From: an uncultured Blautia sp.
GTDB taxonomy: Bacteria; Bacillota; Clostridia; Lachnospirales; Lachnospiraceae
Reading direction: 5' to 3'
Assembly: GCA_948436455.1 (NCBI GenBank)
Contig: CAOJIB010000008.1
Location: forward strand, 1-37,390
Length of the DNA: 37,390 nucleotides
In this document: piece after piece, positions 4,695 through 27,300 of the stretch
Layout of the letters: each line of letters starts with the position of its first letter
How positions within the stretch are numbered: position 1 is the stretch's first letter
Notes under the pieces: model-generated
The model's database searches: none
The model's input: the letters and a program-made list of their open reading frames with translations, nothing else
Told to the model about the DNA's origin: nothing
Program-made: the position numbers and the translations under genes

Positions 4695-5897
4695 TCACGC
4701 CAAAAGCGCGTGGATCTTGGGAAACAGCCGGACGCTTCTTTTTAAAATCCCTTGGGTATGGGCGATCAAAATACCATAATTCGTCATGGGTACCCCTTGG
4801 TCCCGAGCGCACTGCATCCGATATTTCATCTCCCGCTCGTTAAGCATACAACCGCCGCAGTGCACAATCAACTGATACGAAGACAAATCGTCCGGAAATT
4901 CCGTGCCGGAGGTGAAAGAAAATTCCAATTCTTTTCCGGTAAACGCCGAAATCCAGCCAGGCATCTTCACGGTACCGATGTCGTTGCACTGCCGATGGTG
5001 GGTGCAGCCTTCACAGATCAGCACATGGTCGTGATCCTGTAAGAAGGAAAGAGCCGCCGCTCCCGCCACCGCATCGCCCAGATTCCCCTTGTATCGGGCA
5101 AACAAAATAGAAAACGAGGTCAAAAGCACTTCGTCGGGCACGATCCCCGCCACTTGAGCAAAGACCTGGCTGTCGGTGATTACAAGCGCAGGAGGCGCCG
5201 ACAGCTTTTCCAGGGTTTCCTTTAATTCCGTATCCCTGGCAACTAGGCAATTCGCGCCGGCCTCCAGAATATCCCGGATCGTCTGCTGCTGGGGCAGGAT
5301 CAGACGGCCCTTTGGCGCCGCTTTATCGATGGGAATCACTAAAACGACCGTATCCAAGGGCCGCAGGAATTCTCCCACGATTTTCTTTGACGCATCCCCA
5401 GGACGGTGCAATCCGGCAATTTTTTCCTTTAATGCATAAATATTCGTACGATCCCTGGCGCTGACCCAGATTTCCTTTTCCTCTTCCGTGGGAATTTCCG
5501 GCAGCAGATCCGCCTTATTATAGATTAACAGGTAGGGGATCCCCTTTTTTTGGAACCTTTCAATCAGCGCTTCCTCCTCGGCGGTCTTTCCCACCGCCGC
5601 GTCCACCACCAAAAGGGCGATATCCGTCTTATTGAGCACCTGATAACTCTTCTTCACCCGGAGCGCTCCCAGCTCTCCTTCGTCGTCGATGCCCGGTGTG
5701 TCGATCAGCATCACCGGCCCCAACGGAAGAAGCTCCATCGTCTTATAGACGGGGTCGGTGGTCGTTCCCTTCACCTCGGAGACAATCGCCAAATTCTGAT
5801 CGGTAACCGCGTTAATGACGCTAGATTTCCCCACGTTCCGTCTGCCGAAAAAACTGATATGTACCCGCTCCGCCGCGGGCGTCTGATTCATTCCCAT
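4695..5897 (-). CDS. hydF: [FeFe] hydrogenase H-cluster maturation GTPase HydF
   Basis: HydF is the scaffold and GTPase on which HydE and HydG assemble the 2Fe subcluster for transfer to [FeFe] hydrogenase. The 400-residue protein has G1 GRRNVGKS (18-25), G2 around GTTTDP (44-49), G3 DTPG (66-69) and a G4-like NKAD. The C-terminal third carries the cluster-binding set: CEGCTHHRQC, and about 45 residues later HCGGC. ATG start with AAAGGAGG upstream. No hydE, hydG or hydrogenase genes are in the window, so the rest of the pathway must lie elsewhere. It indicates an anaerobic, hydrogen-metabolising organism. Confidence 0.95.
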   Translation of the reverse strand: MGMNQTPAAERVHISFFGRRNVGKSSVINAVTDQNLAIVSEVKGTTTDPVYKTMELLPLGPVMLIDTPGIDDEGELGALRVKKSYQVLNKTDIALLVVDAAVGKTAEEEALIERFQKKGIPYLLIYNKADLLPEIPTEEEKEIWVSARDRTNIYALKEKIAGLHRPGDASKKIVGEFLRPLDTVVLVIPIDKAAPKGRLILPQQQTIRDILEAGANCLVARDTELKETLEKLSAPPALVITDSQVFAQVAGIVPDEVLLTSFSILFARYKGNLGDAVAGAAALSFLQDHDHVLICEGCTHHRQCNDIGTVKMPGWISAFTGKELEFSFTSGTEFPDDLSSYQLIVHCGGCMLNEREMKYRMQCARDQGVPMTNYGILIAHTQGILKRSVRLFPKIHALLA

Positions 5898-6072: not shown

Positions 6073-6122
6073 AATTGAAGTAAAAATTGAAGCATTTTGT
6101 AAAACTATAGGAGGATTAGAAA

Positions 6123-6923
6123 ATGAAAAAGAGATTTTTCCATATTATGCTAGCAATGGCCTGCGTAGCGTCCTTAACAGCCTGCGGCGGCTCCAAGGAC
6201 AGCGGCGATACCGCGGCGGTAATCGAAAGCAAGGAAGATCTAAAAGACAAGATCATCGGCGTACAATTGGGAACTACCGGCGACGAAGCGGCTTCCGAGG
6301 ACGAAATCGGCGCCAAGGAAGTAAAGCGCTACAATAAGGGCAGTGAAGCCGTACAGGCTTTAAAGGCCGGGCAGATCGACTGCGTTATCATCGACTCTCA
6401 GCCGGCGCAGAAATTCATTGAAAAGAACGACGACTTAAAGATTCTGGACGAAACCTTCGTAGAGGAAGAATACGCCATCTGCCTGAAGAAGGACAATACG
6501 GAGCTTCTAGACGCTATGAACGGCGCGCTGGCCGAGCTGAAAGAAGAAGGCGTGATCGACGACATCATGAGCAATTACATCGGCGACGAGATCGGACAGA
6601 CTCCTTACGAATCTCCGGCGGATGCCGACCGTTCCAACGGGACGCTGGTCATGGCCACCAACGCGGAATTCGAGCCTTATGAATATCACGAAGGCGGCGA
6701 GATCGTCGGAATCGACGCAGATATCGCCCAGGCGATCTGCGATAAACTAGGATATGAATTGGAAATCAGCGACATGGAATTCGATTCCATCTTAGCTGCC
6801 GTACAGTCTGGAAAAGCCGATTTCGGCGCAGCCGGTATGACTGTTACAGAGGACCGTCTGGAAAACGCGGATTTCACCGATACATACGCCAATGCCAGCC
6901 AAGTGATTATCGTAAAAAAATAA
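6123..6923 (+). CDS. Polar amino-acid ABC transporter binding lipoprotein, apparently circularly permuted
   Basis: A 266-residue exported lipoprotein (signal peptide ending LTAC, lipidated Cys21) that should capture an amino acid for the permease and ATPase downstream. The order of segments is the reverse of normal cluster-F binding proteins. Residues about 34-156 (ESKEDLKDKIIGVQLGTTGD through the final helix DDIMSNYIG) correspond to what is usually the C-terminal portion; residues 173-266 (GTLVMATNAEFEPYEY through VTEDRLENADFTDTYANAS) correspond to what is usually the N-terminal portion. A short polar linker (157-172) joins them. Ligand-contact motifs remain: GTTGD, IIDSQP and the Thr/Arg of TVTEDR. 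The frame is intact and GGAGG precedes the ATG. The substrate is probably a polar amino acid; which one is unknown. Confidence 0.9.
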   Translation: MKKRFFHIMLAMACVASLTACGGSKDSGDTAAVIESKEDLKDKIIGVQLGTTGDEAASEDEIGAKEVKRYNKGSEAVQALKAGQIDCVIIDSQPAQKFIEKNDDLKILDETFVEEEYAICLKKDNTELLDAMNGALAELKEEGVIDDIMSNYIGDEIGQTPYESPADADRSNGTLVMATNAEFEPYEYHEGGEIVGIDADIAQAICDKLGYELEISDMEFDSILAAVQSGKADFGAAGMTVTEDRLENADFTDTYANASQVIIVKK

Positions 6924-8458: not shown

Positions 8459-8466
8459 ACATTGCT

Positions 8467-8492
8467 GCCGCTCCGTCCGGGGCGGCTTTTTT
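8467..8492 (+). terminator. Rho-independent terminator of the ABC importer operon
   Basis: GCCGCTCC pairs with GGGGCGGC across GTCC (one G-T pair), followed by six T residues. The next gene begins 18 nt later, so some readthrough or a separate promoter is needed for it. Confidence 0.75.
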
Positions 8493-8509
8493 CAAACAGG
8501 AGGAAAACT

Positions 8510-9871
8510 ATGTATTGCCCGAATTGCAAAAAGGCGCTGGAGGAAGGCGCCGTATTCTGTCCGGACTGCGGCACGAAAGCCCTGCCCAACAGGCGCTGTC
8601 CCCTATGCGGCCAGACGTTAGAGGAGGATATGCTGTATTGTCCGGAGTGCGGCTCCTTTGTCGGCGCCCAGGCCGACGGGGCTTCTGCGCCCTCCCCCGC
8701 CCCAAACGCACCGCAGCAGACGCCGTCCCCATCACCCGGGGGCTGGACGCCCTATGAACCGCCAAGTCCCCCTGCCGCCCAAAAGAGCGCCTCTCCCGTT
8801 CCCTGGCTGGCAGCAGCCGGCATCTGTCTCGGCGTGATCGCTCTGGTCATCTGCTTCTTCGTTATTCGAAAAAAGGACGACTCCTCCCCCGCGCCCTACG
8901 ATACGAAAGAGCAGCAGCTCGCCGACGCCACAGAAGATACGGACCAGGAAACGCTTCCTACGGAAACTCCGACAGAACTCCCGACCGAAATGCCGACCGA
9001 AACCCCGACGCCCACGCCCGAGGTAACGGAAGCGCCGAAAACCCTGGAGGGAATGCGTACCAAGGAGGAGCAGCAAAGCGTTCTAAATCCCGGCGCGCAG
9101 CTTGATCTGCAGCATATGAACAATCTGCTCGCCAATACAAACGCCACGTATAGCTGCTATCTGCTGGATATAACCAATATGCAGGAATATGACGTAGCCA
9201 GCGCCGACTATCCCATGCCTGCTTCGGCGCTGATCGGCGTCCCGATTCTCTTTACCGTCGCCGACGGTGTAGACAACGGGTCCCTGGATCTTGGCACGCC
9301 GGTTCTGTTTACGTATACGTTCGATAACGGACGGGGAAGCTTAAAAAGCGGCGATAATGGAAAAACCTTCCCTCTATCGGAGCTTTTAACCGAGGCTCTT
9401 TTGTACAGCGACAACAACGCCTTAAATTCTCTGATGGATCATTTGTCTCTGGATCGTATCAATACCACCTGCCATAGCTATGGCTTTACCAGCGTGGATC
9501 TGCAGCGGAAGCTTACCACCGCCAGCACTTCTCTGGAAAACTATATCAGCGCCAGAGACGCCGCAATGATGCTACAGGCCATTTACCAAAATAATTTCCA
9601 GGGGATCGGCCGAGAATTTTTGCAGGCCAATTTCAAAATCTCCGTCCTGGATACCGCCAATACGGGCATGTATCCGGCCAGCGGCCGATGCCAGACCTTT
9701 CTGAATTTAAACGGCATCACCGATACCCGCTATAATGAGATCGGCCTGTTCCAGAACGGCGACGAAACCTTTATCTTATCCATTTTCACCTGCAACGGCG
9801 TAGGCATTTCCTCCGCCGGCCAGCTGACTACGATTACCACGTACGTACTGGATACTCTCCAGGCGCATTAA
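8510..9871 (+). CDS. Zinc-ribbon, membrane-anchored protein with inactive beta-lactamase-like domain
   Basis: A 453-residue protein. Two zinc ribbons at the N-terminus (CPNC...CPDC, 3-20; CPLC...CPEC, 30-47) should be cytoplasmic. A Pro-rich linker, one transmembrane helix (about 99-119), and a Thr/Pro/Glu-rich stalk with repeated TETPTE units (about 147-172) lead to an extracellular domain (about 190-453) resembling class A beta-lactamases/PBP-fold serine hydrolases. SDN is present (300-302), but the SxxK position reads A-L-I-G (240-243) and no KTG triad is seen, so the domain is probably catalytically dead and may bind a peptidoglycan or beta-lactam-like ligand. ATG at 8510 with AGGAGG upstream; an earlier in-frame start at 8462 would overlap the terminator. 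A sensor or scaffold role is inference only. Confidence 0.8.
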   Translation: MYCPNCKKALEEGAVFCPDCGTKALPNRRCPLCGQTLEEDMLYCPECGSFVGAQADGASAPSPAPNAPQQTPSPSPGGWTPYEPPSPPAAQKSASPVPWLAAAGICLGVIALVICFFVIRKKDDSSPAPYDTKEQQLADATEDTDQETLPTETPTELPTEMPTETPTPTPEVTEAPKTLEGMRTKEEQQSVLNPGAQLDLQHMNNLLANTNATYSCYLLDITNMQEYDVASADYPMPASALIGVPILFTVADGVDNGSLDLGTPVLFTYTFDNGRGSLKSGDNGKTFPLSELLTEALLYSDNNALNSLMDHLSLDRINTTCHSYGFTSVDLQRKLTTASTSLENYISARDAAMMLQAIYQNNFQGIGREFLQANFKISVLDTANTGMYPASGRCQTFLNLNGITDTRYNEIGLFQNGDETFILSIFTCNGVGISSAGQLTTITTYVLDTLQAH

Positions 9872-9960: not shown

Positions 9961-11076
9961 ATGGAATGGAGAGGAATTGATGTCAGCGCATATAACCGGG
10001 TGACCAGCTATGCCCAGGTGGCCGGCTCCGGCATCCGGGTAGCCATTATGCGCGTCACGGAACGGAACAACCAGCCCGATCCCACCTTTGCGGGCAATTA
10101 CAACGGCTTTGGCGAGGTGGGCGTCCAGCGAGGCGTTTATAAATTCAGCTACGCGTTAACCGTTGATCAGGCCAGGACCGAAGCTAGGCAGGTGCTAAAT
10201 ACCCTGGGAAGGCGGCCTCTGGAATTCCCTGTCTTTTACGATATGGAATGGTCCGAACAACGGAAACTTCAAAAGTCCCGGATTACAGAAATCATCAAAG
10301 CGTTCCGGGAGATCATCATCGACGCCGGTTACCATTTCGGCATCTACTGCAACAAAGACTGGTATCAGAACGTCCTAGAGGTAAACCGCCTTCCCTATGA
10401 TTACTGGATCGCCGCCTATCCCTATAATGACAATGGGATCATTGTGGAAAGCCTGCGGCCCTCCTACGGAATCGGCTGGCAATACAGCTCCAAGGGACGG
10501 GTGCCCGGTATCAGCGGAAATGTGGACCTAGACGTCTTCTACAAAGACTATTCCACATCGGAACCTCAGCCGGAATTCCACGCCACCGGCACAGCGATCT
10601 GCACCGGCAATAATGTAAACGTCCGCGCTACTCCCGACGGCAGAATCCTGCGCCAGGTAAATAAAGGAAACCGCTTCCAGATCGACGGCACACAGGTAAA
10701 CGGCTGGTACCATGTCAATGTGGCCGGAACGATCGGCTACATCTACGGCGCTTACGTGCAGCCGGATACCGGCTCCTCTGCGGGCGACGACTGGATACGT
10801 CGGTTACAGCGAGCCGTCGGCGCCCGCGTGGATGGAATCCCCGGACCAGAAACGCTTTCCAAATGCCCGCTGCTTCAAGAAGGCAGCCGAGGAGAGGTTG
10901 TCAAGCTGCTCCAGGAACGACTGGGCCAGACCTTCCACATCGGCGTGACCGGCGGCTACGACGGGATTTTTGGAAACGGAACGAAACGGGCCGTCATTGA
11001 ATTCCAGAAACAGAAAAAACTGGCTATGGACGGCATTGTCGGCCAGAATACCTGGCGAGCGCTGCTGGGATTATAA
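9961..11076 (+). CDS. GH25 lysozyme with SH3 and peptidoglycan-binding domains
   Basis: A 371-residue muramidase-type enzyme that should cleave the glycan chain of peptidoglycan. The GH25 domain (about 1-195) begins WRGIDVSAYN with Asp7, and has the catalytic pair in FYDMEW (Asp94, Glu96). A bacterial SH3 domain follows (about 201-262, NVNVRATPDG to GTIGYIYGAYV), then a peptidoglycan-binding type-1 domain (about 275-371, ending VGQNTWRALLGL). There is no signal peptide, which resembles phage endolysins or proteins exported by another route, yet no other phage gene is nearby. ATG start preceded by AAAGGGA. Confidence 0.9.
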   Translation: MEWRGIDVSAYNRVTSYAQVAGSGIRVAIMRVTERNNQPDPTFAGNYNGFGEVGVQRGVYKFSYALTVDQARTEARQVLNTLGRRPLEFPVFYDMEWSEQRKLQKSRITEIIKAFREIIIDAGYHFGIYCNKDWYQNVLEVNRLPYDYWIAAYPYNDNGIIVESLRPSYGIGWQYSSKGRVPGISGNVDLDVFYKDYSTSEPQPEFHATGTAICTGNNVNVRATPDGRILRQVNKGNRFQIDGTQVNGWYHVNVAGTIGYIYGAYVQPDTGSSAGDDWIRRLQRAVGARVDGIPGPETLSKCPLLQEGSRGEVVKLLQERLGQTFHIGVTGGYDGIFGNGTKRAVIEFQKQKKLAMDGIVGQNTWRALLGL

Positions 11077-26143: not shown

Positions 26144-26167
26144 TATTTACCGTCAAAATTATGGTCA
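26144..26167 (+). repeat. Left direct repeat flanking the recombinase (att-like)
   Basis: The 24-bp unit is TATTTACCGTCAAA, four bases ATTA, then TGGTCA. It matches the right copy at 27284-27307 in 20 of 24 positions, all differences being the four central bases. It ends 17 nt before the recombinase start codon. Confidence 0.7.
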
Positions 26168-26184
26168 CAAAGGAGGAAGTGTCA

Positions 26185-27300
26185 ATGCCCAGAAGGGGAG
26201 AAAACATTTATAAACGGAAGGACGGACGTTGGGAAGGTCGCTATATTAAAGAATATGTGGAGGGAAAAGCGCATTACCGGGCGGTCTATGCGAAAAGCTA
26301 CCGGGAAGCAAAAAACAAACTGGATGCCGTGAAAAAAAGCCAGAAGCTGGCACAGGCAAAAGCAGGGAGTGTAATGACTATAGGAAATCGCTGGTTAGCC
26401 GATTCGGCCGGCACATTAAAAATATCTTCTATAAATAAATATGAGGATATTCTTCGCTGTTATATTCTTCCAAAATTCGGCAACAGAGAATTCTCAGAGA
26501 TTACCAATCGGGATTTGATGAGTTTTGTCCATGAATTACGCACCAGTGGCGGAACAAAGAAACAGGGATTGGCGCCGGCGACAGTAGCGGAAATCTTGTC
26601 TGCGATGAACGGTCTGCGTGTTTACGCCCTAAAGCATGACTACAATGTGGCATTTTCTCCAGAATGCGTGAATGTGAAGCGTGAGCAGAAAAATATCCGG
26701 GTTTTTAGTCTGGAGGAAGAAAAGAAGCTTTTTACCTATCTTCAAGAAAACATGAATCTGACGTCTCTGGGAATTTTGCTGTGCTTTTTCACTGGAATCC
26801 GCCTGGGCGAATTATGCGCGCTGCAATGGGAGGATTTTAATATGCAGGAAAGGCAATTGTGCGTACACAGGACAATGCAAAGAGTCCGGGTAGACAACGA
26901 CCAGAAACACAAAACGGAGGTACGTATTTTTGAACCGAAAAGTAGTTGCTCTATTCGAATCATTCCATTGCCGGATATCATTGTCGACTCTCTGGAGGAT
27001 TTTTATACGCCGGATGCATTTTTGCTGACAGGCCAGCGGGAACGCTTTATAGAGCCTCGGACGATGCAGAATCGTTTTAAATCTATACTTGCCGCTTGCG
27101 GCATCGCGAACGCAAATTTTCATGCAACCCGCCATACTTTTGCGACAAGATGCATAGAGCTTGGCTTCGATGTAAAAAGCCTTAGCGAGATTCTCGGCCA
27201 TGCCAGCGTAGCCATTACTATGAATCGCTACGTGCATCCAACCATGGCCCTCAAGAGCGAAAATATGAATCGTCTTTCTGAGTTATTTACCGTCAAATAA
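26185..27300 (+). CDS. Tyrosine recombinase/integrase
   Basis: A 371-residue site-specific recombinase. A basic N-terminal arm (MPRRGENIYKRKDGRWEGRY) resembles the arm-binding domain of Tn916-like integrases, followed by a core-binding domain (about 62-160) and the catalytic domain. All active-site residues are visible: Arg206 (GIRLGEL), Lys252, His313 and Arg316 (HATRHTF), His339 (LGHAS) and Tyr349 (NRYVHP). The ATG at 26185 has AAAGGAGG upstream; an in-frame ATG at 26161 lies before that site and is rejected. The gene stands alone: no excisionase, relaxase or phage gene is near. Its last codons overlap the right direct repeat. A terminator follows. It is probably active or recently active, given its intact frame. 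Confidence 0.93.
   Translation: MPRRGENIYKRKDGRWEGRYIKEYVEGKAHYRAVYAKSYREAKNKLDAVKKSQKLAQAKAGSVMTIGNRWLADSAGTLKISSINKYEDILRCYILPKFGNREFSEITNRDLMSFVHELRTSGGTKKQGLAPATVAEILSAMNGLRVYALKHDYNVAFSPECVNVKREQKNIRVFSLEEEKKLFTYLQENMNLTSLGILLCFFTGIRLGELCALQWEDFNMQERQLCVHRTMQRVRVDNDQKHKTEVRIFEPKSSCSIRIIPLPDIIVDSLEDFYTPDAFLLTGQRERFIEPRTMQNRFKSILAACGIANANFHATRHTFATRCIELGFDVKSLSEILGHASVAITMNRYVHPTMALKSENMNRLSELFTVK

Follow-up and report, generated by a model that had tools for sequence, protein, structure and literature searches.

A circularly permuted amino-acid binding protein beside ABC importer genes in Blautia, with related proteins cut at other points

The window analysed here is a stretch of 37,390 nucleotides from an uncultured Blautia sp. 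On its forward strand lie a gene for an amino-acid binding protein and the genes for the permease and ATPase of an importer (Table 1). The beta-lactamase-like gene lies directly after the importer genes, and the HydF-type gene is divergent from them. PADLOC returned no match.

Table 1. Parts of the binding protein gene and other features of the window
Feature	Position	Strand	Basis
Ribosome-binding site AGGAGG	6109..6114	+	Read from sequence
Permuted amino-acid binding protein, 266 aa plus stop	6123..6923	+	Profile and homology matches; start ATG
Signal peptide, ending in lipobox LTAC, Cys22	6123..6188	+	From sequence; lipidation inferred
Most of lobe 2, residues 33-112, GlnH about 100-180	6219..6458	+	GlnH mapping; lobe limits from PMC13229503
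Second hinge crossing, residues 113-117, GlnH 181-185	6459..6473	+	GlnH mapping
Lobe 1 C-terminal part, residues 118-154	6474..6584	+	AncQR, profile and GlnH alignments
Linker, old C-terminus to old N-terminus, residues 155-171	6585..6635	+	AncQR alignment
Lobe 1 N-terminal part, residues 172-254	6636..6884	+	AncQR, profile and GlnH alignments
First hinge crossing, residues 255-259, GlnH 85-89	6885..6899	+	GlnH mapping
Lobe 2 first strand, present C-terminus, residues 260-266, GlnH 90-96	6900..6920	+	GlnH mapping
Importer permease, 232 aa	7030..7728	+	PF00528 1.6e-20; best NCBIfam GlnP, under that model's cut-off
Importer ATPase, 246 aa	7718..8458	+	PF00005 1.3e-39; best NCBIfam GlnQ, under that model's cut-off
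Zinc-ribbon domain and beta-lactamase-like enzyme domain	8462-9871	+	PF13354
HydF-type hydrogenase maturation GTPase	4695-5897	-	
GH25 lysozyme with SH3 and peptidoglycan-binding domains	9961-11076	+	
Phage-type integrase	26161-27300	+	

The binding protein is a member of the SBP_bac_3 family of type II binding proteins, as its match to PF00497 in a Pfam search (1.1e-35, 122.8 bits) is above the curated cut-off of 26.4. A first-pass annotation of the window had proposed that the two halves of the protein are circularly permuted, and the comparisons below place them in swapped, non-overlapping positions. The best stretch of PF00497 aligns profile positions 1-92 of 132 with residues 175-266, and TIGR01096 aligns positions 121-250 of 250 with residues 32-153 (whole-protein score 134.1, under that model's own cut-off of 256.35). 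In an alignment with the solved protein AncQR (PDB 4zv1; E 1.1e-46), residues 172-266 correspond to chain positions 9-104, and residues 34-154 to 109-232. Against a 219-position profile built from 20 normal-order SBP_bac_3 relatives, residues 33-155 match positions 98-218 and residues 173-266 match positions 2-95. Both lobes are present exactly once and nothing is doubled; at the cut, just positions 96-97 are absent, and the halves sum to one profile that is not in the normal order. Chance cannot be the source of the swapped match: once its halves are brought into register, the protein shares 64.6% identity over 212 columns with L125, the nearest relative of normal order among those fetched. 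The protein is therefore a circularly permuted type II SBP_bac_3 binding protein; because its linear order is swapped, we class it as a derivative, and not as a normal member of the family. The old C-terminus is joined to the old N-terminus, as the annotation had it, by a linker of about 17 residues and not the 16 that it counted. Three linker residues, G158, Y162 and P165, do not vary across an alignment of 24 proteins (the window protein and 23 of the 28 relatives described next).

A scan of genome contigs yielded 28 loci that encode a relative, all from other records and some from named isolates. At 28 of 28 loci, including one that begins inside the gene at a contig end (L019), a single blastp alignment to the window protein spans both halves, so the belief that other Lachnospiraceae might carry the same order was well founded. 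These collinear relatives include proteins of Blautia schinkii DSM 10518, Blautia wexlerae MSK.20.46, Sellimonas caecigallum and Drancourtella massiliensis. In the window's own genus, 46 of 60 genomes (the window's among them) have a match below 1e-50: 39 of these were fetched and read as swapped, six were judged by match range alone, and in one (G025) the contig ends after the old C-terminal half. Purifying selection on the permuted gene is strong, with dN of 0.010-0.054 against dS of 0.385-0.887 in five close pairs. The source assembly is a draft broken into 187 contigs and 87% complete, but an assembly error as the cause of the swapped order, or a decayed gene of two incomplete domains, is to all intents ruled out by the 28 collinear loci, and is further opposed by the strong purifying selection, the conserved linker and the fact that the two halves sum to one profile with about two positions missing.

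For mapping the cut, E. coli K-12 GlnH was aligned to the profile of the 20 normal-order relatives. In PMC13229503, the large domain of GlnBP consists of residues 5-84 and 186-224 and the small domain of residues 90-180, with the hinge printed as 85-89, 181 and 189. The window protein ends at the position of GlnH 96 and restarts at that of GlnH 100, within the small domain. On this mapping, the cut falls one strand into lobe 2, in the loop that follows this strand, and not at the lobe boundary, where it had been annotated. Both inter-lobe hinge crossings would therefore be retained, and lobe 1 would be turned into one continuous stretch. The lipid anchor is predicted to lie on the lobe 2 side, in agreement with the annotation.

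The ligand pocket was considered by looking up 13 positions, made up of ligand contacts of GlnH together with Thr118 and Tyr185. The window protein equals GlnH at 9 of the 13. At the other four (Asp10 to Asn, Lys115 to Gln, Gly119 to Thr and His156 to Ile), its side chains differ from those of GlnH and are the ones found in the normal-order consensus. Among 52 rows of the window's cut class (class A, below), the Arg75 position is Arg in 51, and the Asp157 and Tyr185 positions are Asp and Tyr in all 52. On these alignments, the ligand-contact positions survive in both lobes.

A survey of the clostridia, which had been suggested in the first-pass annotation, found the permuted order in genus, order-wide and phylum-wide searches. 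The order-wide collinear search covered 392 genomes and the phylum-wide search 398, and collinear hits were fetched. Four classes of cut were recognized by the ranges matched on the 219-position profile. Class A, that of the window, matches about 97-218 and then 2-95. Class B matches about 107-217 and then 4-106 (cut at GlnH about 108/109; L059, L060, L136, L137, L139 and L140), class C about 127-217 and then 4-126 (GlnH about 129/130; L135, L146 and L147), and class D about 164-217 and then 2-166 (GlnH about 170/171; L114-L118, L132 and L133). Alignment starts vary by some residues within these classes, and those of L140 and L146 run spuriously into the signal peptide. All four single-unit cut points fall within GlnH 90-180, that is, in lobe 2. 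The distinct proteins fetched number 77 in class A (14 of them permease-fused), 6 in B, 3 in C and 7 in D, which reflects the fetching sample and not abundance.

By hand count, an A-type match at 1.2e-53 or better occurs in 39 of the 392 order-wide genomes, with G401 left out as a normal-order tandem; 29 of the 39 were fetched and read as swapped, and 10 were judged by range. In 19 of the 39, the match lies in an ORF of 500 aa or more, and all 11 of these that were fetched are fusions of binding protein and permease. A D-type match occurs in 23 of the 392 genomes (22 at 9.3e-107 or better, and G178 at 2.1e-45), and the order was read in 7. Since a collinear search favours permuted hits, 31 order-wide genomes were also searched with PF00497 itself, giving 73 rows that represent 66 distinct ORFs (hand count). 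Eight of the 66 ORFs, in 7 of the 31 genomes, are permuted: class A in G000, G062, G066 and G067, class B in G079, class D in G099, and two permease-sized fusions, one in G069 (L083, type A) and the other a 516-aa ORF in G099 (L198, type A or B). The other 58 are in normal order by profile range or inspection, several long proteins being too partial to tell, and with the same proviso no cut in lobe 1 was seen among the 66 ORFs. Very long ORFs of 1149 to 1896 aa in G077 and G085 have weak partial SBP_bac_3 matches (L202-L204, L207 and L209).

Some related proteins contain more than one unit. L109:1413-4331 (-) encodes a 973-aa protein of three normal-order units, about 93% identical, followed by a permease like that of the window; L142 and L143 (731 aa) are normal-order tandems of two units each. 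Other arrays begin with the old C-terminal half, and are thus in permuted order: L079, L131 and L144 have two units each, L080 has three, and L130:74-4654 (-), which encodes 1527 aa, has five units in permuted phase and a permease match at residues 1320-1518. The inner units of an array fit either phase, as solved normal proteins match L130 in collinear stretches that run from one unit into the next; arrays are read as permuted on the grounds that their first unit starts with the old C-terminal half and that single-unit fusions exist. These fusions of one permuted unit with a permease are L081, L083, L099-L108, L145 and L152. In L083:2153-4882 (+), the permuted unit, permease and ATPase form one chain of 910 aa, and in L082:1858-5268 (+), two permuted-phase units, permease and ATPase form one chain of 1137 aa. 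A permease match was found inside 9 of 12 array or partial ORFs. The window protein itself consists of one unit, and its permease is encoded by a separate gene, an arrangement distinct from the tandem and fusion of GlnPQ.

These arrays suggest how the permuted order may have arisen. The inner sequence of an array is identical in either phase, and therefore the trimming of its ends decides whether a normal or a permuted protein results. We infer that out-of-phase trimming of an array is the simplest route from normal to permuted order: tandem copies of a normal unit would have fused, with normal-order tandems as plausible intermediates, and the array would then have been trimmed out of phase. 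The tandem duplication and trimming proposed in the annotation is made plausible by L109 and the permuted arrays; the step itself is seen in no genome examined.

Out-of-phase trimming probably happened more than once in the family, because the single-unit relatives are cut at four different places, and each further cut point requires either an event of its own or a later displacement of the cut. An AU test that held every permuted row in one clade rejected a common origin (62 rows versus 33, p = 2.04e-5, from a short tree search with long branches, so that the exact value should not be leaned on). The six class D rows as one clade were not rejected (p = 0.31). Holding the 42 single-unit class A rows in one clade gave p = 0.034, with distant rows that group with arrays in the set. 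A narrower set of 28 class A rows, those near the window, is separated from 26 normal rows by a single branch (support 91, not starred), and these rows together with six stray class A rows gave p = 0.035. In a 118-row tree, in which the fused class A proteins L101 and L107 are wrongly labelled B through a chance alignment of the linker, the order labels need 13 changes. These results favour several permutation events, without giving their exact number.

Downstream genes were counted wherever more than 1.2 kb of sequence follows the binding protein gene, and near-copies were counted too. For class A, a permease gene is downstream at 82 of 94 loci and an ATPase gene at 92 of 94, and 14 of 97 proteins carry the permease themselves. 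Both genes are downstream at 6/6 class B, 3/3 class C, 7/7 class D and 28/31 normal-order loci. Among class A loci, L111 has neither a permease nor an ATPase match within 2.6 kb downstream, and L134 has no downstream ATPase match. A second permease gene was never seen downstream at the loci examined.

In many Blautia-type orthologues, 12 of the 24 aligned (L002, L004-L007, L010, L012-L016 and L026), a signal peptide is present but a lipobox absent. Because 5 of 7 normal-order proteins fetched from the window's genus also lack the pattern (L078, L094, L095, L097 and L098; it is present in L077 and L096), we reject permutation as the cause of lipobox loss, although such pattern counts are rough: two class A hits are implausibly far from the domain, and some visible lipoboxes, as in L059, are missed. 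A shorter tether in permuted forms was also considered and set aside, as domain starts are not comparable. The orthologues without a lipobox could point to an amino-acid binder that acts as a released scavenger or sensor instead of a transport subunit. We consider this very improbable, given that the window protein does have a lipobox and is followed directly by permease and ATPase genes, that related permuted units are fused to a permease, and that normal-order proteins of the genus also lack the lipobox.

The best explanation of the whole, to which we assign a probability of about 80%, is that the protein is the permuted binding subunit of an amino-acid ABC importer and derives from tandem copies trimmed out of phase. 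The importer would consist of this extracellular binding protein, one permease and the ATPase. The presence of a single permease gene suggests a homodimeric permease, as in GlnPQ, and by this analogy the permease is probably a homodimer. As judged from sequence, the permuted protein would adopt the fold of normal-order relatives, including the two-stranded hinge, close on an amino acid and hand it to the permease. Its lipid anchor would be on lobe 2 in place of lobe 1. Both the pair of lobes and a homodimeric permease have approximate two-fold symmetry, so that either lobe is probably able to carry the tether; this would account for the tolerance of the move.

Domain swapping can be promoted by long linkers and re-cut lobes. 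The protein might accordingly form a dimer completed by an exchange of lobes between two chains, instead of a closed monomer; apart from this general tendency, no point speaks directly for such a dimer. Both hinge crossings lie within one chain, the linker has the length that lobe 1 needs to close on itself, and relatives have single units fused to one permease. We therefore regard a domain-swapped dimer as unlikely, and a closed, monomeric binding subunit as the preferred form.

For such a subunit, the question of why permuted forms persist has two competing answers. The first is that binding proteins in Clostridia have been permuted repeatedly, in at least four loops of lobe 2, by phase shifts of arrays, as a recurrent adaptation that shifts the tether or permease fusion from lobe 1 to the symmetry-related side of lobe 2 and thereby reverses how the protein sits on its permease. 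Judging from the topology of type II binding proteins, the cut loops would lie on the face of lobe 2 opposite the cleft, which corresponds to the lobe 1 face that bears the normal ends. We hold the adaptive explanation only tentatively, as somewhat doubtful.

The second answer is neutrality: the permutation would be a side effect of array trimming at break-tolerant loops, and moving the tether would bring no advantage. In 34 normal-order proteins, indel events average 0.32 per position and are most frequent at h124 (16 events), h96 (9), and h105 and h128 (5 each). Seven positions have at least four events, of which five lie in the cut windows of classes A, B and C, and h24 and h188 lie elsewhere. 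Three of the four cuts, A, B and C, thus coincide with the most indel-rich sites of normal relatives, while the class D cut window has at most 2 events (rank 9) and is not indel-rich. The unchanged ligand pocket is also in keeping with neutrality. On the other side, all four cuts are in lobe 2 and none in lobe 1 among the sampled ORFs, a bias that pure neutrality does not require, though lobe 2 holds most of the indel-rich loops. Neutral persistence rivals the adaptive explanation and is compatible with the best explanation given above; we judge it slightly better than an even bet.

Permutation in this family has several implications. The precedent that we found among binding proteins is one protein with one cut, and here one family has four cut points; relatives in other gut-type bacteria are cut elsewhere, so reshuffling has apparently taken place more than once. 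The family also provides a series of normal units, normal tandems, permuted tandems, permease-fused permuted units and permuted single genes, which opens to experiment both the origin of permutations and the importance, if any, of the choice of lobe for the anchor. The same series supplies naturally tolerated cut sites for sensor design. A practical warning is that models with a fixed order score permuted binding proteins as two partial hits.

Among known systems, GlnH and AncQR (type II, cluster F) resemble the window protein in sequence family, ligand-contact positions and type of operon. Their halves are in the normal order, whereas those of the window protein are swapped, with new ends in lobe 2 and the lobe 1 ends linked. 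In PDB comparisons with one query for each of classes A, D, B and C, the best 60 of 100, 100, 225 and 404 matches were listed, each by its best stretch; among these matches listed, only two-domain stretches of GlnPQ (6h30) run through the old C-to-N junction. GlnPQ of Lactococcus lactis, according to PMC8025302, has tandem SBP_bac_3 units fused to a homodimeric permease, with linkers of 14 and 19 residues. As described there, its units are in normal order and permease-fused, in contrast to the one permuted unit and separate permease of the window. An engineered precedent is a red sensor in which circularly permuted GltI gives high-affinity glutamate sensing (PMC6335823). Like the window protein, this GltI is a permuted type II amino-acid binding protein, and it still binds its ligand; the type II fold can therefore take such a change. 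It is, however, man-made and inserted in a fluorescent protein, whereas the window protein is natural.

In a literature search whose coverage excluded most subscription journals and all preprints, we recognized no report of a natural SBP_bac_3 permutation. OpuAC/ProX is reportedly a possible type II precedent. We do not retain it as such, since "permut" does not occur in the text of PMC2861598; nor does it occur in that of a BvgS paper (PMC4352136). The closest natural parallel found is TpMglB-2 (Tp0684), a type I binding protein whose authors (PMC4990184) propose the term 'Type Ic / Cluster Bc' and suggest tethering as one possible reason for its permutation. TpMglB-2 and the window protein are alike as natural permuted lipoprotein binding proteins of ABC importers. 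They differ in that TpMglB-2 has the type I sugar-binding fold and a single cut, and no sequence relation between the two is expected; the matches listed for the window protein are to SBP_bac_3 and other type II amino-acid binding proteins, and not to type I sugar-binding proteins. The permutation of TpMglB-2 adds a fourth hinge crossing, whereas that of the window protein adds none. Permutation of a binding protein is known already from TpMglB-2, and the family described here adds cases among type II proteins of SBP_bac_3.
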